From a virus: a stretch of DNA of 41,522 nucleotides. Below are positions 5,682-35,578 of this stretch, one piece after another; the first letter of the stretch is position 1, and each line of letters begins with the position of its first letter. The stretch is from IMG/VR virus record IMGVR_UViG_3300012944_000035, positions 1 through 41,522 of that record. One strand, given 5' to 3'. The translations under genes were made by a program, and so were the position numbers. The notes beneath the pieces were generated by a model. The model searched no databases, had not been told where the DNA came from, and saw only the letters and a list, made by a program, of their open reading frames with translations.

Positions 5682-6995
5682 TTAGGCCGCCAGGGCGACG
5701 CGCTTACGCGCGCGTAAATGTTGGTAGAACTCGAAAAGGCCGGGAACCGTCTTCTCGTAGTGCCGATTGGCGATCACCCAGGAGCGCGCTTCGCGAGCGA
5801 GTGTCTTCCGCAGCTGTACGTTCTCGATGAGGGCGCTCAGTTTTTCGACGAACTCTTCGGGACTGCTGTAGAGGAGCCCGGTCTTTCCGTCTTCAATCTC
5901 GTCACTGTAGGGAGCCGCTTTTGCCGCGAGCGTTGCTTCCGGCTCGAAGGGAAGGACGGACTCGTACCACTTGATGGCACTTTTCCCCTTGTTGAAGACA
6001 TTGTCCACGAGGGGACAGAGGTTGATGTCCACGTCCACGATGCCCCGCATCGGCTTGTAGGCGTCATACGGGACCCAACTCTTCAGTTCCAGTTGCTCCT
6101 TCGGGATGTTGTCGTGGATCCACGGGTAGTGAGTCCCCCAGATGACGAACTTGACCTTCGGATACTTCAACGCAATGGTTCTGACCGCGTCCCGGAGCGG
6201 GAACCAATCCACCATGTGGGACGCACCACCTTGCCACATGATGCGGACCGCCCCTTCGGGGCGCGGAACAAGCTGCGGCGCAGGGTAGTCCTCCGGGATC
6301 ACCGAGTTCGGGAAGATGTACACGTCCTTCGCGCCTAGTTCTCGGTAGAACTCGGCCAGTGCCGGCGACGGCACAGTGACGCCATCGGCCCTTCGGGCCG
6401 TGTCGAAGACTTGGTTAACTCTCCGCCAGTTCCGCTCTACGTCGAACGTGACGACCTCGTGCTGCACCTCGTGCCTTGTGACACCGTCCTCCCAGAGGAT
6501 GACGTCCGTACCGTCCGGAAAGGTCGTCACGAGCCGGTCGCCATTCTTCAACGGCGTGCCGTCGTAAGCCCGAACGCCCAGATGCACAAAGGCCGGGTTG
6601 AACGGGTGTGTGTAGTCGATCCGGTCGTCAAGGTCGAAGACGAACGACGGAGGGAAAATCACCTCGTTGCCGTCATCCGTCTTTCCCGACCTCATGTTCG
6701 AGAGAGCATTGAGCACCGCCTCGACAGAGCCGCCAGAAAGAGCGAAGTTCAGGATGATCTCCGCAGAAAAGAGAGCCCCAATCGACTCGTCTACGGCTCC
6801 ACGGCCCGCGTCTACAAATGCCTCTGCAAGGCCGAGCTTGAAGAGGCCCCGAGTCGGGACTTCCACACGGTAGTAAAGGCAGCCGTTGTTCTCCCCCATC
6901 GATTTGGCGTAGACCCCAAACTTCGGGCGACTGCGCCTCCGAGACGGGTCTTTGAACGCCTCTTCCGACGGCACTCCGTCCTTGTGCTCGGTCAT
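5682..6995 (-). CDS. GT-B glycosyltransferase (GT4-like) in the virion gene cluster
   Basis: 437 aa from the ATG at 6995, which overlaps the previous stop as ATGA; a longer upstream extension would lie inside the preceding gene and is rejected. The N-terminal half carries GVYAKSMGENNGCLYYRVEVP, as in glycosyltransferases acting on phage or cell-surface glycans. The C-terminal half has the GT4 donor-site pattern: FNKGKSAIKWYES, then EPEATLAAKAAPYSDEIEDG followed by KTGLLY. A long C-terminal helix follows. Likely transfers a nucleotide-sugar-derived hexose. The acceptor is unknown; capsid or tail decoration is plausible because it lies between head-completion genes, but this is inference. Confidence 0.8.
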   Translation of the reverse strand: MTEHKDGVPSEEAFKDPSRRRSRPKFGVYAKSMGENNGCLYYRVEVPTRGLFKLGLAEAFVDAGRGAVDESIGALFSAEIILNFALSGGSVEAVLNALSNMRSGKTDDGNEVIFPPSFVFDLDDRIDYTHPFNPAFVHLGVRAYDGTPLKNGDRLVTTFPDGTDVILWEDGVTRHEVQHEVVTFDVERNWRRVNQVFDTARRADGVTVPSPALAEFYRELGAKDVYIFPNSVIPEDYPAPQLVPRPEGAVRIMWQGGASHMVDWFPLRDAVRTIALKYPKVKFVIWGTHYPWIHDNIPKEQLELKSWVPYDAYKPMRGIVDVDINLCPLVDNVFNKGKSAIKWYESVLPFEPEATLAAKAAPYSDEIEDGKTGLLYSSPEEFVEKLSALIENVQLRKTLAREARSWVIANRHYEKTVPGLFEFYQHLRARKRVALAA

Positions 6996-7324
6996 TTCGA
7001 CACCGACGTGACAACGTATTCGGGGTGAGTGGCGAAGAAGCGCATCACTTTCCGCTGATCTTCCCAGAACTCGGGGTCGATCTCTTGAATCGCCATCTTG
7101 ACCGAGATCGGCACAGTACCGAGATACTGCGCCGTCCCGTTCTTCCACCAGCCAGTAGAACCTGTCTTCGGCCCTTTCGTTCCGAGATCGGCCAATGCTC
7201 CGCGTTGTTCTTTGATCCCCTCGAAGAACGTCGCCAGGCGGGGAACCCGCCTGGTCAATTCCTCCGGCTCAAGGACTTGGTTGATGAACTTCTCATCGGC
7301 CATGTTCAGGCTGTAAGTCGGCAT
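6992..7324 (-). CDS. Hypothetical phage protein, 110 aa
   Basis: Starts MPTYSLNMADEKFINQVLEP and ends in TGA overlapping the glycosyltransferase ATG. Mostly helical with an aromatic, Gly-rich middle (GSTGWWKNGTAQYLGT) and an acidic stretch EIDPEFWEDQRKV. No signal peptide, membrane segment or catalytic motif is seen. It lies in the run of small genes after the capsid gene, where head-decoration and head-completion proteins usually lie. I do not recognise the family. Confidence 0.75.
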   Translation of the reverse strand: MPTYSLNMADEKFINQVLEPEELTRRVPRLATFFEGIKEQRGALADLGTKGPKTGSTGWWKNGTAQYLGTVPISVKMAIQEIDPEFWEDQRKVMRFFATHPEYVVTSVSK

Positions 7325-18324: not shown

Positions 18325-18602
18325 CCTTGACCGCCAGCCGATCGTCGGTCCTAGCGCCCCGCGTTCGGTTTCATGCTGCAATACCAAAGCACGGTTCCGG
18401 GCTGTGGAAACTATCGAAGTCTTTACTAGGTCCGTATTGGGAGTGTGGCGACGATCAAAGCGATGGTGAAGGAAAAGTAATTCGGCCTAGTTGGCTAGAA
18501 CCGTATCCGCTCAAACTGTGGCTAGATCATCCCTTCGGCCCCGACTCGGGAGACGACGAACGTGTATCCCGCATATCCCGAAAACAGCCAGACAATGCCT
18601 GA
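18321..18602 (+). CDS. Hypothetical protein upstream of the amidoligase, 93 aa
   Basis: TTG 18321 overlaps the previous stop (TTGA). The C-terminal two thirds look like a real globular segment (HGSGLWKLSKSLLGPYWE, then RPSWLEPYPLKLWLDHPFGP). The stop overlaps the amidoligase ATG by eight bases. It could be a small accessory of the amidoligase pair; this is from position only. Confidence 0.5.
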   Translation: MTLTASRSSVLAPRVRFHAAIPKHGSGLWKLSKSLLGPYWECGDDQSDGEGKVIRPSWLEPYPLKLWLDHPFGPDSGDDERVSRISRKQPDNA

Positions 18603-19884
18603 TCCCTCACAGCTGACCCCAAACAAGCCGATCCCGTGGCAATGCTCCCAATGCGGCGTGCAATGGGTAAAGGCACCATTTACCCATCAGTCCGTTGCGG
18701 GAGCTAAATTCTGCCGGAAATGTGCAAAACTCTATTTCTCTAATTGCTTAACTTGTAACACATTGCTATACAAAAGCAATTCCCAACTGTTAGCAGTTTG
18801 GGTTCTCCCGACAGGCCCGGATATGGATTGGCATCTCGCCACTAGAGAGACTCGTCACCTTTGCTCTAACTGCTGCTCAGACGAACAATGGATCACGTGC
18901 CGCCAATGTAAAGGGCATGAATTGACAAATGAATCCCGCCTTGTCAATTACGCCGGTATCGGCCAGCGACATTGCTGCCGCCGTTGCTACGCGGTAGAAG
19001 GATGCGATAGATGCATAAACTGCGACCACCATTTCACGGCCAATAACCTCGTAACCATAGATAGCAGTAAGTTTTGCGCTGTATGCTCCCAAAGATTCCC
19101 GATTCCCGACACGACTTTCATGCAGAACAAGAGTAAACTATTCGTAGGTTTTGAATTAGAATTTCTACATTGTCTCTCCGACTTGCCTTTTGTCGGCCCC
19201 TTTGGCCATTTGAAATCCGACGGCTCGATAAAGGCCACCGCCGCCAAAGGCGGATATCCTCGCGAGTTTGCATCCCGCATCGCGAGAGGCGACACCTTGC
19301 TCTCGCAAGTGACTTCCGTTTGCGATGCTTTGAAGGCATCGCAGTCTTACTCCAACCGTTCTTGTGGCTTTCACGTGCATATTGATATGCGAACCGTGAC
19401 GGCATCACAACGCAAACAAATCGAGTACTGGTGGTTCCTTTACGAGCCGATCTTTTTCGCCATGGTGCGCCAGCAACGGCGGAAGAACACTTATTGCACT
19501 TCCGTCAAACTGGAAGGGAGATTCCGTCCGGAACACACACGCTACCAAGCCCTTAATACATCGGCCTATTCAAAGCACAAAAGTTACGAATTCCGACTCC
19601 ATCACGGCACAGTTAACTCCACACTAATCCGGAAATGGATCCTTCTCTTGCTCCGTTTCGTCACAAAGGCGATAGCGGCTCCAGTCTTAATCACTGACGA
19701 GCGTCTAACCGGCCGGCAACTTCTCATCTCCTTCTATCGCTTTCTCGACTTGCCTCTCAAAGGCCGAAAGTACGTCATCCGGCGCATCCGCCGCTTCGAG
19801 CGTTACGTCCGCATCACAGAGTACATCCAATTATCAAAGGAAGGAACCCCGCAACGTGTGCAGCATCAGCGGCTTCGCGTCTAG
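18595..19884 (+). CDS. Amidoligase (COOH-NH2 ligase, glutamine-synthetase-like) with Cys-rich N-terminus
   Basis: 429 aa from ATG 18595. Residues 17-164 hold four CxxC...CxxC pairs (17/20-40/43, 51/54-90/93, 102/105-128/131, 140/143-161/164), probably zinc ribbons or knuckles. From residue 183 comes the Amidoligase_2 pattern: FVGFELEF (E187, E189), SDGS (208-211), REF (E224), GFHVHID (258-264), RYQALN (317-321) and YEFRLHHGT (E332, R334). This family uses a glutamine-synthetase fold to form amide bonds with ATP. The next gene is a class II glutamine amidotransferase, a known pairing (Iyer and colleagues on amidoligases). Stretches are AT-richer than neighbours, hinting at transfer. Substrate unknown. 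Confidence 0.85.
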   Translation: MPDPSQLTPNKPIPWQCSQCGVQWVKAPFTHQSVAGAKFCRKCAKLYFSNCLTCNTLLYKSNSQLLAVWVLPTGPDMDWHLATRETRHLCSNCCSDEQWITCRQCKGHELTNESRLVNYAGIGQRHCCRRCYAVEGCDRCINCDHHFTANNLVTIDSSKFCAVCSQRFPIPDTTFMQNKSKLFVGFELEFLHCLSDLPFVGPFGHLKSDGSIKATAAKGGYPREFASRIARGDTLLSQVTSVCDALKASQSYSNRSCGFHVHIDMRTVTASQRKQIEYWWFLYEPIFFAMVRQQRRKNTYCTSVKLEGRFRPEHTRYQALNTSAYSKHKSYEFRLHHGTVNSTLIRKWILLLLRFVTKAIAAPVLITDERLTGRQLLISFYRFLDLPLKGRKYVIRRIRRFERYVRITEYIQLSKEGTPQRVQHQRLRV

Positions 19885-20830
19885 TAAACCGCTTTCCTAC
19901 GAGACGGCGCTGCGCTTATGCCGCGCGCTCTTGTTCTTCGGCCAAGAGCGCGGAAAGCAGAGTGCCGGGATTCACACGAACGGCAAACTACTCAAACGCG
20001 CCATATCTCCTGACGAATTCGGCGTTCTTCCCGAATTCGCCGCGCTTCTCGAAGGCGGCGCAAGTTACGCCTTGCTCCATACCCGCGCCCCAACTTGCGG
20101 GGAGAAAGGCAACGAACAAGCGCAACCTTTTGTCTCCGCTTCCGGCATCGCCACAATCCACAACGGCGTTATCGGAAATCCCGAAAAAGTCGCAGAGACG
20201 CACAGCCTTCTCTGGCCGTCCGGCGTAGACAGCGAACTATTTTCGGCTTACGCCGAAAAGAACGGCATCTTTAAGGTGCCGCGCTTCTTACGCTCCATCT
20301 TTGGCAGTGCCGCCGTCGCCGTCTACCACGAAAACAAGGTCTATCTCATTCGAGACGGAAACCCGATCGAAAGCTACCGCGTTGACTTGACCAACGGCAC
20401 GCGCGTCATGCTATTTGCCTCGACAGAAGGCATCATCGACCGAGCCGCCCATTACGTCTGGCTTATGGACTATCGCATCAAATCCGACACCGTACCCGAC
20501 AAAGTACTGTGCCGTTTGGATCCGCAGCAAGGCCGAGTCCGGGAAATCGGACTGTGTTACCAGCCCAACTACAAGAGCACAGACTATGGCCGGTTCAATT
20601 GGGATACATGGCGAAAGGAAAACGCCAAACTACCCAAGTCATGGGCTGACAACAACATCGGTTACGTAAACGGCGTCTGTGGCCGTTGGGTACGGAAGAA
20701 AGGCAAGCAAATCTTCCGCCCGGAGCCGTTGCCTGAATCCAAAGGCCAGCCACTCGGCGCACTACCGCCGCCGCCGCCGCCTGCGGCAGAAAAAGACAGC
20801 AGCAACGAAGAAGCGCAGTTTTACGAGTAG
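19856..20830 (+). CDS. Class II glutamine amidotransferase
   Basis: 324 aa, GTG start preceded by AAGGAAGGAA and overlapping the amidoligase by 29 bases. MCSISGF puts the nucleophilic Cys at position 2, exposed after Met removal (Ntn hydrolase). HTRAPT (R77), NEQAQPF, IHNGVI (H102 N103 G104) and D125 form the glutamine pocket. A proline run and acidic tail end the protein. No synthase domain is fused, so ammonia would go to a partner, most plausibly the adjacent amidoligase. Together they could amidate carboxylates of a protein, peptide or cell-wall component. Confidence 0.88.
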   Translation: MCSISGFASSKPLSYETALRLCRALLFFGQERGKQSAGIHTNGKLLKRAISPDEFGVLPEFAALLEGGASYALLHTRAPTCGEKGNEQAQPFVSASGIATIHNGVIGNPEKVAETHSLLWPSGVDSELFSAYAEKNGIFKVPRFLRSIFGSAAVAVYHENKVYLIRDGNPIESYRVDLTNGTRVMLFASTEGIIDRAAHYVWLMDYRIKSDTVPDKVLCRLDPQQGRVREIGLCYQPNYKSTDYGRFNWDTWRKENAKLPKSWADNNIGYVNGVCGRWVRKKGKQIFRPEPLPESKGQPLGALPPPPPPAAEKDSSNEEAQFYE

Positions 20831-22093: not shown

Positions 22094-23170
22094 GTGGACA
22101 GTGAAACGACAGTTGACACCACAGAAGACGTGCGTCACAATGACACACCTGTCGGCCCTTTCGAAACGATCTATCGCCCACTCCGCGGCTACGAGATCTT
22201 GGGCCATGCGGCTTCGCCGCCCCCAATGCTCGTTGCCGACTTGCTCCGCAGCCAGTCCCTGATCGCCATCACCGGCGAACCCTACTGCGGAAAGACCCTC
22301 TTCCTACTCGATCTGATGATTTCCCTCGATACCGGCGCCCTTTTCCTCAATGCGCTTATCCCGGCGAAGAACCACCGCGCCCTCTTCATCGGCCAAGACG
22401 CTCCGACGTGGGACTACATCGGCGGCTATTCCGCCCTTGTCCGCGGCCTCGGCTACGCCGAGGAACCACCACTCAACAGCGTCTTCATCTTGAATCGCGG
22501 CATGGCCTTCGGCCAGAACAACGTGGCTTTTATTCGCTGTATCGAACAGGCGATCGACCTCTACGACATCAACGTCGTGATGCTCGATACGTTGAAGGCG
22601 TTCCACGACTTCAACGAGAACAACAACCAAGAAATGGATCGCGTGATGACGCTGCTCAAATACCTCCGCGATCACCACGGCCTCACTGTGCTTTTCACCC
22701 ATCACACAGCAAAACCCACCTTCACGAAAGGCGGACTCAACGAAATAAGTGGAAACTATCGTGCTCGCGGCGCATCTGTAATCGCAGGATCCATCGACCA
22801 GCACCTAATCCTGACCAAGACGAAAGGGCTCATTTCGATGTCGCTCGCAAAAGCGCGAGGCTCAGCTGGAAACCTACCAACGTCCAGCTTCCGAATCACG
22901 TCGGCTTCGCCGACAACTCTTGACCTGGACGCCGATTCCGGCGGCAACTCTATCGTCCGTAGTGTCCTGCGAGCCCTTCGGGCTTCGCAAGAAGTACAGC
23001 TCAGAACCATTAGCGAAGCTCTTCGCGCCGACGTGGCCTTCAAAGATCTCACTGACTCTCAGCTATACTCTCGCATCAGTGGCGCTCTTCTTTCTCTCGA
23101 AAGATCCGGCTCCGCCCGACGCGTTTCTCACGGCACCTGGAGCACCATAACCACAAAGGAGACAACGTAA
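22094..23170 (+). CDS. RepA-like hexameric DNA helicase (RecA fold)
   Basis: 358 aa, GTG 22094 with GGAGG five to six bases upstream (22084-22088). RecA-like core: Walker A GEPYCGKT (61-68), a Walker B region NVVMLDTLKAF, a sensor segment VLFTHHTAKP. A C-terminal winged-helix-like part (about 275-350; RSVLRALRASQEVQ...RISGALLSLERSG) follows. Layout matches RepA/AAA_25-type replicative helicases of plasmids and phages. It lies immediately after an origin-like region, as expected for a replication initiator/helicase. Confidence 0.8.
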   Translation: MDSETTVDTTEDVRHNDTPVGPFETIYRPLRGYEILGHAASPPPMLVADLLRSQSLIAITGEPYCGKTLFLLDLMISLDTGALFLNALIPAKNHRALFIGQDAPTWDYIGGYSALVRGLGYAEEPPLNSVFILNRGMAFGQNNVAFIRCIEQAIDLYDINVVMLDTLKAFHDFNENNNQEMDRVMTLLKYLRDHHGLTVLFTHHTAKPTFTKGGLNEISGNYRARGASVIAGSIDQHLILTKTKGLISMSLAKARGSAGNLPTSSFRITSASPTTLDLDADSGGNSIVRSVLRALRASQEVQLRTISEALRADVAFKDLTDSQLYSRISGALLSLERSGSARRVSHGTWSTITTKETT

Positions 23171-23619
23171 TGCAGATTTCCACTTTGAAGAATGTGCAGA
23201 AGTTCTACCCGAGGGTGAAGACTCTCGTCGATGCTGACAAACCGGTGGTGATCACCGTTACAGAAAACGATCAAATAACCGGTCACATCATGGAAGAGAC
23301 CGAGTGCGCCCTTGCCGTCGCCTGCAAGCGCCAGTTCAAAGGCGGCGCAATCATCGGCCTTTCAGCCTCTTACATCATCAAAGGCACACGAGCAATCCGC
23401 TACAAAACCAGTAATTCCATCTCCCGTGAGATCGTGACATTCGACCGTCACAAAGACTTCTCACCGGGTGTTTACACTCTTGTCCCATTCTCTCCGGCGA
23501 ACCGACTCCAGAACCGGACCAGAAAATACAAACCAGGATCCGGAGAAACTCCCACAAAATCCCGTATCGCCTATCATCTGACCACCCGTGTTCGGAGGAA
23601 GAATACGGTGAAAGAATGA
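23170..23619 (+). CDS. Conserved-type phage protein, 149 aa
   Basis: Starts MQISTLKNVQKFYPRVKTLV on the last base of the helicase stop. Contains ECALAVACKRQF, GAIIGLSASYIIKGTRAIRY and REIVTFDRHKDFSPGVYTLV. I have seen this pattern in phage proteins of unknown role, often near replication genes. The last ~25 residues are basic and disordered. Function unknown. Confidence 0.72.
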   Translation: MQISTLKNVQKFYPRVKTLVDADKPVVITVTENDQITGHIMEETECALAVACKRQFKGGAIIGLSASYIIKGTRAIRYKTSNSISREIVTFDRHKDFSPGVYTLVPFSPANRLQNRTRKYKPGSGETPTKSRIAYHLTTRVRRKNTVKE

Positions 23620-25285: not shown

Positions 25286-25608
25286 AGGGACGACCACATC
25301 AGTCCAGAACCAAGGAACGACTGGATCTCCAAGAACGCGTAGAAGCAGCCTTGACAGCTCTGGGCTCTTCTCCCGACGAATGCGCCGCATCTCTTCATAA
25401 GCTCGGCATCAAAGGAGAAAGAGGTAAGTCTCTTTCTTGCCCATTGGCCCAATACATCACCTCCGTCGTTCCGAAAGGAGAAGTTGCGACTGACGAATTC
25501 TTCTTTTTCCGGCGGCCAATTGCCGTGAAAACCATGGCACGCAACTTCGACCAAGGACAATATCCTTTCCTGGAAGGACCGGGAGCTGAGACCCGCATAC
25601 GTGTATAG
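25282..25608 (+). CDS. Paralogue A flanking the tRNA gene, 108 aa
   Basis: GTG 25282 overlaps the previous stop. The core EAALTALGSSPDECAASLHK...SCPLAQYI matches paralogue B (25702) at TALKALGTS...ACPVAQYM. Both share a helical N-half with a Cys-Pro-x-AQY element and an (F/L)xRPxxxxxxxFDxxxxP C-half. The stop codon's last base is the first base of the tRNA. No known function. The start is uncertain because the 25 N-terminal residues have no counterpart. Confidence 0.65.
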   Translation: MKGRPHQSRTKERLDLQERVEAALTALGSSPDECAASLHKLGIKGERGKSLSCPLAQYITSVVPKGEVATDEFFFFRRPIAVKTMARNFDQGQYPFLEGPGAETRIRV

Positions 25609-25679
25609 GCGCCGTGGCGGAAGGGTTGACGCGACGGATTGCAACCCCGTTGACGTGGGTTCGAGTCCCACCGGCGCCT
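25608..25679 (+). tRNA. tRNA-Cys (GCA)
   Basis: 72 nt. Acceptor GGCGCCG/CGGCGCC (7 bp), D-stem GCG/CGC, anticodon arm ACGGA-TTGCAAC-CCCGT with GCA at 25641-25643 (one A.C mismatch at the loop end), T-arm GTGGG-TTCGAGT-CCCAC (5 bp), discriminator U73 typical of tRNA-Cys. CCA is not encoded. Sits between two paralogous genes in the same direction with no own promoter, so it is probably cut from the long transcript. Confidence 0.93.
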
Positions 25680-25701
25680 GCCTTCGGCAGAAAGGAACGA
25701 C

Positions 25702-26355: not shown

Positions 26356-26748
26356 ATGGCGAAGAAAGAGAAGGATGCACAGCCGCCGCTCCAGGCCCAT
26401 CAGGGCGACATCTTCTTCGAGAAGATCGACTCGATCCCGAAGGGCTTCCGTTACAGCCCTACGAAGACGGCCTACGGCCGGATCGTCCTCGCTGAGGGCG
26501 AGATCACCGGACACTTCCACGCACTCGAAGAGGACAAGGAAACTGTCGTCCTGACTGCCGACGACAACGCTGCGATCGAGGAGATGATTCTCCATGTTCG
26601 GAATCCCGAAGGCGTTACGGTCACTCATCCTGAGCATGGCCCGATCACCCTCGAACCCGGTCTCTGGAAGGTCACCCGGCAGCGCGAGTACGAGCACGGC
26701 TCCGAGACCCGAGACAGAGAAGCAAAAGCCCGTCAGGTCGCTGACTGA
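26356..26748 (+). CDS. His-rich cupin-like phage protein, 130 aa
   Basis: Has HQGDIFFEKI, LAEGEITGHFHAL, HPEHGPITLEPGLWKVTRQRE. The AEGE-TGH-H and HPEH-I-L-PG pattern matches short proteins often found next to DUF6745-type genes in phages and bacteria, as here. The His/Glu cluster could bind metal in a cupin barrel. Biochemical role not known. Confidence 0.65.
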   Translation: MAKKEKDAQPPLQAHQGDIFFEKIDSIPKGFRYSPTKTAYGRIVLAEGEITGHFHALEEDKETVVLTADDNAAIEEMILHVRNPEGVTVTHPEHGPITLEPGLWKVTRQREYEHGSETRDREAKARQVAD

Positions 26749-26763
26749 GGCGCCTTCGGCGCA

Positions 26764-26796
26764 GGTGGCGGGGGTACCGCAAGAGCCCCCGCCACC
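26764..26796. terminator. 11-bp hairpin after the cupin-like gene
   Basis: GGTGGCGGGGG - 11-nt loop - CCCCCGCCACC, 15 bases after the stop. A smaller GCGCC-TTC-GGCGC hairpin (26750-26762) lies just before it. No U-tract, so termination is uncertain. It also precedes the DUF6745-type gene leader. Confidence 0.45.
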
Positions 26797-26905
26797 CCGG
26801 TGGCAGGTCTTTGCCGCCCGCGAGTGGCAGCAACTCGCTTCACAACAACAACATTGGGCACCAACTCCTGGCTGGACACAAATTCAACAGGATCCATCTC
26901 TAATC

Positions 26906-27613
26906 ATGGATACAGAACCAATCAACACTGACACTGCGACAATGACCGAAATAGATCGCGCTCGTCTCGCGGCGCACCGTGCCGCAAAGGCTCTCTTTCC
27001 GACCTACGGCACAGAGGCGATCCACTATCGCGGAGACGTCGCACCGTTCAAGCCACGCACTCAGCCCGATGCCTGGGCTCTATCGAACAACGTGCTAACC
27101 GTCTGGCGGCAGGCCTGTTACTTCTCTCCGATCGGCGACAAGTCCGACTTCTTCCCGGTGACAGTTCACTTCAACCAGACCGGTTCTCTCCACAGTACGA
27201 AAGGCCCAGCGATCACTTTCAGTGACGGCTTGAAGGTCTACTTCATCCGTGGCATCGAAGTCGGCGAACTGGCCGTGATGCGCCCCCACGAGATCCCGAT
27301 CTCGATGATCCGTGATTGTAAAAACATCGAGCAGAGAAGGATCTTGATCGATTGCTACGGGAAGGAGAACTACATCTCTTCGATGGGGCTGAAGCCCATC
27401 CACCAGGACGACTGGGGCCAACTCTTCCGTGCCGAGATCCCCAACGACGAACCTCTCTGTATGCTAAAAGTCGTAAACAACACGCCAGAAAAGGACGGCA
27501 CCTACAAGGACTACTGGCTCTGTGTGCCTTCTTCCATTACAACGGCCAAAGCCGGTGTCGCCTGGACCTGGGCAAGAGCCGAGCAAGCCTTCAATCCAGT
27601 TCAGCGTAGCTGA
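26906..27613 (+). CDS. DUF6745-like protein, 235 aa
   Basis: ATG 26906 is the best start; a GTG near 26764 would add a low-complexity N-terminus. Pattern: TKGPAITFSDGLKVYFIRGI, then HEIPISMIRDCKNIEQRRIL and IDCYGKENYISSMGLKPIHQ, and MLKVVNNTPEKDGTYKDYWL. This order (GPA-x-DG-KVY-xxG, (I/V)ExYG, E/VVN-TPE-DG) is typical of DUF6745. The role is unknown; phages often keep the gene next to the cupin-like one, as here. Confidence 0.7.
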   Translation: MDTEPINTDTATMTEIDRARLAAHRAAKALFPTYGTEAIHYRGDVAPFKPRTQPDAWALSNNVLTVWRQACYFSPIGDKSDFFPVTVHFNQTGSLHSTKGPAITFSDGLKVYFIRGIEVGELAVMRPHEIPISMIRDCKNIEQRRILIDCYGKENYISSMGLKPIHQDDWGQLFRAEIPNDEPLCMLKVVNNTPEKDGTYKDYWLCVPSSITTAKAGVAWTWARAEQAFNPVQRS

Positions 27614-33913: not shown

Positions 33914-35578
33914 TTGCTGATCGTTCCTCTCGGAGAGACGATCGACTTCCAAGGAGCGCGTCATTTCTGGAAACTTGCCGCGGAGGCGGGCCTCGACCGG
34001 ACGGCTTTCGTCGTCACCACGACAGCTGACTACGAGTGCCACGCAATCAACGGTGACATTCGCGTCATCGCTTGTCTGGGCGGAGTCACCTTCGGGGCTC
34101 TTACCGGAGTTTCCGGGCGTTTCGATTCACTTCGGGGATTTCTCTTTCGGCCAGACGAGTGCCGACCTATACAGCGAACTGTCACCGAACAATCCGGTTT
34201 CTACCGCACTACACGAAAAGCTCCTGATGGCAGCATTCTTCGCCGTCGAGGGGATCCAAAGTATCGGCGTGTTCGGACTCTTGGCCTTCCGCCCCTTCCG
34301 CCCCGAGCAGACTACATCACTTGTCTATCTCCTCCTCGATCCGTCCAGCGGGGGCAGTTCAAAGCCTTACCAATACTAATCGCGGATCTGATGCGCCTAC
34401 GGCGCATCATCTCAGGGGAAGCGCAGCCGATCATTGTGGAGATGACAGCTGCCTTCCCCACCGTCGCCACCGAGCTAACTCTCGACATCGAAACAATTGG
34501 CCACTCCGTAGCCATCGAACGAGTAGGAATTGCTGGGCCTACCGGTCCGGTCACAACTGTTGCGTGGTCGGCAGAACTTCGTCGCTGGTTAGCCGACGCT
34601 GTCGCTCGTCCCAACGTCACCATCATCGGCCACCATCTCCAGTTCGACTTGGCGCGGCTGCGCCGCGCTGGCGTCCGAGTGCCGCGGGAGACAGCCCTCT
34701 TCGACACGATGTTCGCGGCAAAACTCCTCCTTCCAGACTCTCCGATGGGCCTTGGATCCGTCGCCTCGATCTACGCCGACACGTTCCGCTGGAAGCACAA
34801 GAGCGAAACGAACCCGGCCCTTTACAACGCCTACGACGTAGCAATCACCAGAGCCATCGCCGCAAAACAGCGCGCCGTCATCGCCGCCGAAGGAATGTCT
34901 TCCCTCTTCCACGACATGATGATGCCCGGCCTCCACGTCCTGCTCGACATGACGGAAAGAGGCATCCCCATCCATCCCGGTTTCGTCTTGGGTGGCGTCC
35001 CCATCTCCCACTTGTCGGCTCTTCAACCGGTCGGCCCCGACAACTGCATCCACCCCACCTACATCCCCGATCCAGATCTCTGGAAGACTGACGATCTCGA
35101 ACCACCCACGGGACGGCTTGCAGCAATGAACCCGCAGCTTTCGGAAATACCATCTCTCCTCGTCCCCCACAGGACCGAAAATCAGCTCGCCCACATCTTC
35201 TTCCAAGAGCCGAGCCGATCCATCCCGAGCCTCGAACCGCTCGTCACCGACGGCTTCATCACCAACGCCTTCGGCCGAAGGAAACGCTTCTACGGCTACT
35301 ACAAGAACAAAGCCGGCGTCATCACCGGCCCAAACCGGCTTGCACCGGAACAGTTCCTCGTTGCCTCCACCATCACCGACGCAATCTGGTCCCGTCTCGG
35401 GGGAATGGAGGCAATCTCCACCGCCTTGGGCGGCTGGCTTCTGGCCATCTCCCGAGCCGGATTCATCGTCGAGCTGCCAAAAACCGCAAAGCTGCAGCCT
35501 CTCGTGGCCCACATGGAGACCGGCACTGGGCTAAAGACACGCGTGGTCTTAGGTCCGACCGTCGGCTCGATATGGTAG
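33914..35578 (+). CDS. Uracil-DNA-glycosylase-like / 3'-5' exonuclease / collapsed family A DNA polymerase
   Basis: 554 aa. Residues 1-165: UDG-like fold (VIACLGGVTFGALTG, then SLRGFLF, and RGQFKALPILIADLMRL). Residues 175-330: intact DnaQ-type exonuclease (LTLDIETIG D191/E193; GHHLQFDLARL D245; YNAYDVAITR D308). Residues 335-554 align with family A polymerases at TGRLAAMNPQLSEIP (399-413) and at GFITNAFGRRKRF (447-459), but only about 33 residues separate them, whereas E. coli Pol I has about 140. Motifs A and B are missing and the C motif HDE is replaced by SRAGF. Exonuclease likely active, polymerase not. Confidence 0.8.
   Translation: MLIVPLGETIDFQGARHFWKLAAEAGLDRTAFVVTTTADYECHAINGDIRVIACLGGVTFGALTGVSGRFDSLRGFLFRPDECRPIQRTVTEQSGFYRTTRKAPDGSILRRRGDPKYRRVRTLGLPPLPPRADYITCLSPPRSVQRGQFKALPILIADLMRLRRIISGEAQPIIVEMTAAFPTVATELTLDIETIGHSVAIERVGIAGPTGPVTTVAWSAELRRWLADAVARPNVTIIGHHLQFDLARLRRAGVRVPRETALFDTMFAAKLLLPDSPMGLGSVASIYADTFRWKHKSETNPALYNAYDVAITRAIAAKQRAVIAAEGMSSLFHDMMMPGLHVLLDMTERGIPIHPGFVLGGVPISHLSALQPVGPDNCIHPTYIPDPDLWKTDDLEPPTGRLAAMNPQLSEIPSLLVPHRTENQLAHIFFQEPSRSIPSLEPLVTDGFITNAFGRRKRFYGYYKNKAGVITGPNRLAPEQFLVASTITDAIWSRLGGMEAISTALGGWLLAISRAGFIVELPKTAKLQPLVAHMETGTGLKTRVVLGPTVGSIW

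Follow-up and report, generated by a model that had tools for sequence, protein, structure and literature searches.

A phage amidoligase with a LIM-like N-terminal array and its linked class II glutamine amidotransferase

The two-gene locus

Record IMGVR_UViG_3300012944_000035 of IMG/VR is a 41,522-bp uncultured virus, the whole of which was analysed and is called the window below. Two overlapping open reading frames are present on its + strand, the first an amidoligase gene and the second that of a class II glutamine amidotransferase (Table 1), and the overlap of 29 bases described in an earlier reading of the letters alone (the sequence-only reading) was seen. Both possible starts of the ligase lie upstream of its first cysteine. 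A Shine-Dalgarno-like AAGGAAGG is found ~11 nt upstream of the amidotransferase GTG, and a scan for promoters and terminators gave a site count no higher than in shuffles.

Table 1. Features of the amidoligase and amidotransferase locus (window coordinates).
Feature	Position	Strand	Details
Amidoligase_2 (PF12224) gene	18562..19884	+	440 aa from GTG 18562; Pfam, full-length homologue matches
Alternative ligase start	ATG 18595	+	429 aa; start chosen in the sequence-only reading
LIM-like zinc-finger array, four CxxC...CxxC pairs	18643..19086	+	Residues 28-175 of the 440-aa form
Glutamine-synthetase/YbdK-like amidoligase core (predicted)	19117..19809	+	Residues ~186-416; AlphaFold2 model, fold comparison
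Class II glutamine amidotransferase gene	19856..20830	+	324 aa, GTG start, Cys after initial Met; Pfam
Ligase/amidotransferase gene overlap	19856..19884	+	29 bp

Ligase core and amidotransferase

The ligase matches Amidoligase_2 (PF12224) in Pfam with 63 bits against a cut-off of 22 (E 5.1e-17). The ELE, SDGS, GFHVHID and EFR motifs of an amidoligase that had been picked out by eye are all present in the ORF, as GFELEF (E198/E200), SDGS (D220, S222), CGFHVHID (C268, H271, H273) and EFR (E343, R345), and the window ligase has the conserved ExE, HxH and ExR residues of the family. Searched as a single sequence against solved structures, the ligase gave no match. An AlphaFold2 model made from an alignment of 17 sequences reaches pLDDT values of ~90 or above across most of the stretches 190-310 and 330-370, with lower values elsewhere and poor ends. 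Compared with Foldseek and VIA-align, the core of this predicted model resembles glutamine synthetase 5dm3 (Z 12.7 over 203 residues) and the YbdK-type structures 1r8g/1tt4 (Z 11.9-12.2). The ligase core is predicted to have the carboxylate-amine ligase fold of glutamine synthetase and YbdK; the feared absence of an amidoligase fold did not occur. YbdK and glutamine synthetase have this core fold in common with the window ligase (Z ~12) at only ~8-14% identity and, to our knowledge, both work without a separate class II amidotransferase.

Conservation was assessed in 17 array-bearing ligases, the others of which are no more than 17-32% identical to the window ligase. Twelve residues are invariant in this set (E198, E200, S222, E235, C268, H271, H273, R306, R327, N332, E343 and R345), and the same 12 are invariant in nine members of the close family too. 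Loss of ELE/SDGS residues across homologues, which had been feared, was not seen, with E198, E200 and S222 all retained. The amidotransferase matches GATase_6 in Pfam (40.9 bits against a cut-off of 27, E 2.5e-10), and its sole match among solved structures in a single-sequence search was GlmS at 0.0075. Its N-terminal cysteine site is intact, as proposed: C2, R77 (HTR), N103-G104 and D125 are invariant in 14 homologues and 11 close-family members. Since active-site residues are invariant across homologues of both proteins, the two enzymes look intact and under selection.

The N-terminal array

The four zinc-knuckle pairs counted at the N-terminus of the ligase are there in the sequence (C28/C31-C51/C54, C62/C65-C101/C104, C113/C116-C139/C142 and C151/C154-C172/C175). 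Nine overlapping CxxC matches occur in 194 residues, a number that none of 200,000 shuffles of these residues attained, and on this permutation test a chance origin of the motifs was rejected. All eight cysteines of pairs 3 and 4 are invariant in the 17 array-bearing ligases.

LIM domains are protein-binding modules. In Pfam the window ligase alone has no LIM match, only a match to DUF4379 (treble-clef) below cut-off. A profile of the array family (21 sequences) matches tandem LIM domains best, with PINCH LIM4-5 at 1.9e-7 and CRP1 at 7e-6, and Cys-rich proteins of other kinds rank after these two. Modelled on its own, the array has a mean pLDDT of 75; the top Foldseek matches of this model are the LMO2 and PINCH LIM domains, which are weak (6e-4 at best), and in VIA-align the best Z is 4.3, to ribosomal proteins, with LIM domains not among the top rows. 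As the profile matches are accompanied by weak structural ones, the array is called LIM-like here and not a proven LIM member; this is its best description, and the resemblance rests partly on cysteine spacing.

Two BFVD models, A0A6J7X5D3 (‘Amidoligase enzyme’) and A0A6J7X2B6 (‘LIM domain containing protein’), both proteins of uncultured Caudovirales phages, are among the best viral-model matches. Because they align over about the whole length of the ligase model, the array-plus-ligase architecture seems to be in public data already. Their global superposition on the ligase model is poor (rmsd 15), and the entries give no neighbourhood or function. No publication linking a LIM domain with an amidoligase was found, in a scope outside which the founding paper lies (doi 10.1039/b917682a).

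Linkage of the pair across phages

Searched singly against IMG/VR, neither of the two window proteins returned relatives; only alignments reached them. An amidotransferase-led scan gave nine distinct contigs with close relatives, a count that leaves out duplicates and one distant match. In 8/8 contigs with enough upstream sequence the amidotransferase is immediately preceded on its strand by a complete array-bearing ligase, the gene ends falling within ~60 bp of each other, and the ninth contig (L241) begins 216 bases before the amidotransferase. In L254, which was found through the ligase, a ligase truncated by the end of the contig is just upstream of the amidotransferase. Where upstream sequence is available, no close relative of the amidotransferase was seen without the ligase, an outcome that had been feared.

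Ligase-led scans gave 96 dissimilar ligases, the window included, and an amidotransferase was sought within 1.5 kb of each. The zinc N-terminus had been thought unusual: it is indeed uncommon but it recurs, 26 of the 96 ligases having at least three CxxC. An amidotransferase accompanies 25 of the 26, compared with 29 of the 70 others (Fisher p 4e-7, not corrected for common descent), and this near-perfect linkage supports the functional coupling that had been suggested for the two genes. The sequence distances of ligases and amidotransferases also correlate (Mantel r 0.47, p 0.03), for which shared descent alone could suffice. Of the ligases at 58 loci from bacterial genomes, none reached three CxxC, and an amidotransferase lay next to four of them; array forms lacking a CG.H[VT]H-type motif would be missed here, as the scan required it.

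Several other arrangements were observed. Five tandem array-bearing amidoligase ORFs surround a single class II amidotransferase in L109:776-8275 (IMGVR_UViG_3300035698_019371). A second layout, in which an amidotransferase is followed by a conserved ORF of ~95 aa and then an array-bearing ligase, is found in L018:1353-5933 and also in L023, L025, L026, L035, L062, L063 and L085, and several contigs carry a further array-bearing ligase ahead of the amidotransferase. C-terminal CxxC pairs are present in the amidotransferases of this layout too, and the ~95-aa protein, two examples of which were compared with PHROG without a match, may be the substrate or a third component. In L183, L186 and L187 (Nitrospirae and Syntrophaceae MAG contigs), a class II amidotransferase gene comes right after that of an amidoligase of ~600 aa; the amidoligase of L183, the only one of the three scanned, has a C-terminal SWIM zinc finger.

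Phage setting and composition

In its structural proteins the window matches the SU10-type families of capsid, portal and adaptor, and its large terminase subunit is remote from all INPHARED phages (best 27%). L104, a phage of IMG/VR, is genuinely related, with a large terminase 59% identical to that of the window. It also shares the small terminase, the PDDEXK nuclease and others with the window, and its pair occupies the same site, flanked by terminase and replication genes. An AAA helicase lies downstream of the pair in L237, L242, L243 and L254, as in the window. The pair heads a rightward gene block with helicase and exonuclease genes, and is therefore probably made early in infection. 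Related phages keep the place of the pair, with the helicase following, which marks it as an old-established component of a phage lineage, most likely an early one. No tyrosine integrase was found in the ten records (window and nine relatives), and a lytic life style is likely, not proven, for the window phage.

The AT-richer stretches remarked on in the sequence-only reading exist for the ligase gene (50.8% GC against 58.5% for the window), but these are not unique: another window gene (23170-23619) has GC as low as the ligase gene, and the amidotransferase gene has 56.7%. In relatives the GC of the ligase gene ranges from ~6 points below to 4 above that of its own locus. The hint of horizontal transfer drawn from composition is weakened by this spread on both sides of the locus and by the conserved position; since related phages hold the pair in an unchanged order and position, transfer is not the most economical explanation.

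The neighbourhood of helicase and exonuclease genes, in the window phage and its relatives, might point to nucleic acids, with the array binding DNA or RNA and the pair amidating a carboxyl-bearing base or nucleotide precursor. Contact with nucleic acid is conceivable in that the amidoligase of Arthrobacter phage Ottawa has a possible helix-turn-helix N-terminus (HTH_23, E 0.041). However, no hydroxymethylase, thymidylate-synthase-like or base-transferase gene was noticed among the scanned window proteins (some small ORFs left out), and the array is closer to LIM than to known DNA-binding zinc fingers. We regard modification of nucleic acids or nucleotides as quite improbable.

Other features of the window were noted. 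A tRNA-Cys (GCA) at 25607-25682 (+) is its sole tRNA, in a phage encoding a Cys-rich protein. An unusually short DNA polymerase A-like protein (33914-35578, +; 554 aa) has an exonuclease part, to which no more than a short polymerase-like tail is attached. A DUF6745 gene, of a family of unknown function, lies at 26594-27613 (+; E 6.6e-40), and a glycosyltransferase-like gene (5682-7148, −) sits inside the structural module. A known defence protein was searched for and not matched.

Comparison with known phage cassettes

Contrary to what had been supposed, a pair of amidoligase and amidotransferase is nothing unusual in a lytic-looking phage: such pairs are on record for LUZ24-like, phiEco32-related, Arthrobacter and OM43 phages, among others. 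An amidoligase and an amidotransferase are described in UFV-P2 and LUZ24-like phages (PMC3890496), phage tf (PMC3517423) and OM43 phages (PMC10580990), and, together with gamma-glutamyl cyclotransferase (GGCT), in a Planctomycetes chronic phage (PMC10945688). A ‘peptidoglycan modification cassette’ is reported to be common to phiEco32, LUZ24, PaP3, RIO-1 and others (PMC5498523). The functions given in the consulted parts of these accounts are proposals, and they contain no assay of any phage member that we could find (PMC3890496, PMC3517423, PMC5498523, PMC10580990, PMC10945688). The pair as such is of a kind well documented in phages.

The cassette of LUZ24-like phages, tf and PAA2 comprises a COOH-NH2 ligase, amidoligase, amidotransferase, ATP-grasp and GGCT. 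Like the window, these phages have an Amidoligase_2 gene and then a class II amidotransferase gene in a block with replication genes; unlike the window, their amidotransferase is of ~500 aa, three further enzyme genes are present and the ligase has no array. Arthrobacter phages Shrooms (genes 97-98) and Ottawa (65-66) have both families in matching order, with amidotransferases of 313 and 307 aa, respectively, compared with 324 in the window. Their ligases have a shorter N-terminus without cysteine pairs in place of the CxxC array, and a GGCT gene lies just upstream of the pair.

Neither COOH-NH2 ligase (PF14395) nor GGCT (PF06094) was found in any of the ten records (window and nine relatives, which may be fragments). 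The same searches found COOH-NH2 ligase in four cassette phages and GGCT in 5/6 other amidoligase phages. The ATP-grasp RimK family (PF08443) had no match in the window, in a search that also missed the annotated one in PAA2. GGCT acts on gamma-glutamyl amines, and its absence hints that the product of the window pair is not handled by the GGCT route. With its LIM-like array of four CxxC pairs, its near-perfect coupling and no GGCT or COOH-NH2 ligase found, the window pair appears to be a variant that has been little described.

These comparisons bear on two further readings. A role at the cell envelope, in which the side chains of peptidoglycan are amidated or rearranged by the pair and the infected cell is thereby protected from other phages, follows a proposal made for phage cassettes of amidoligase, amidotransferase, COOH-NH2 ligase, ATP-grasp and GGCT (PMC5498523, PMC10580990). 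The SU10-type structural proteins of the window phage can be added in its favour. SU10 belongs to the phiEco32-like podoviruses. However, COOH-NH2 ligase and GGCT, found in known cassette phages, are unmatched in the window and its nine relatives, no signal peptide or membrane segment was seen by eye in the ligase or the amidotransferase, and the published phiEco32-type function appears itself to be a proposal; an envelope role is unlikely here. The Planctomycetes phage has led to a proposal of auxiliary nitrogen metabolism, in which the pair would make a small amide that aids the nitrogen economy of the host during infection, a claim which rests on growth effects of the whole phage (PMC10945688). 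A free small substrate needs no four-module zinc array and, as searches of the window and its nine relatives gave no GGCT, we consider this very improbable.

Proposed mechanism

We favour, with a probability of about 0.68, the reading of the pair as a two-subunit glutamine-dependent amide synthetase with the array as binder of target or partner. The N-terminal cysteine of the amidotransferase would release ammonia from glutamine, and this ammonia would pass to the ligase. The ligase, with its glutamine-synthetase fold, would activate a carboxylate with ATP and join to it the ammonia, or possibly another amine. The LIM-like array would most likely hold a protein or peptide target, or else dock the amidotransferase. 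The pair, probably acting early, would in this way alter a host or phage target. The envelope, nucleic-acid and protein-target readings concern the target and are compatible with glutamine-dependent amide chemistry.

A ligase with a glutaminase subunit is known from MurT-GatD, which carries out glutamine-dependent amidation of peptidoglycan (PMC3267633). The proposed window pair would work likewise, with a ligase and a glutaminase subunit together yielding an amide. The folds of MurT-GatD, a Mur ligase and a class I amidotransferase, are unrelated to those of the window pair.

A more specific and tentative version of the amide synthetase, which we hold to be rather doubtful, is that the LIM-like array selects specific host or phage proteins whose carboxylates the pair amidates with glutamine ammonia. 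This would be zinc-finger-guided amidation in a lineage of its own, its chemistry and target distinct from those of GGCT-containing cassettes.

Phage amidoligase cassettes have long been noted, and in the published accounts examined their target is only proposed. Finding it would be simpler in a two-gene form, which lacks the extra enzymes and has a binding module that is large and recognisable. Pull-downs with the array and the detection of amides made by just two proteins would then become possible routes to the target.
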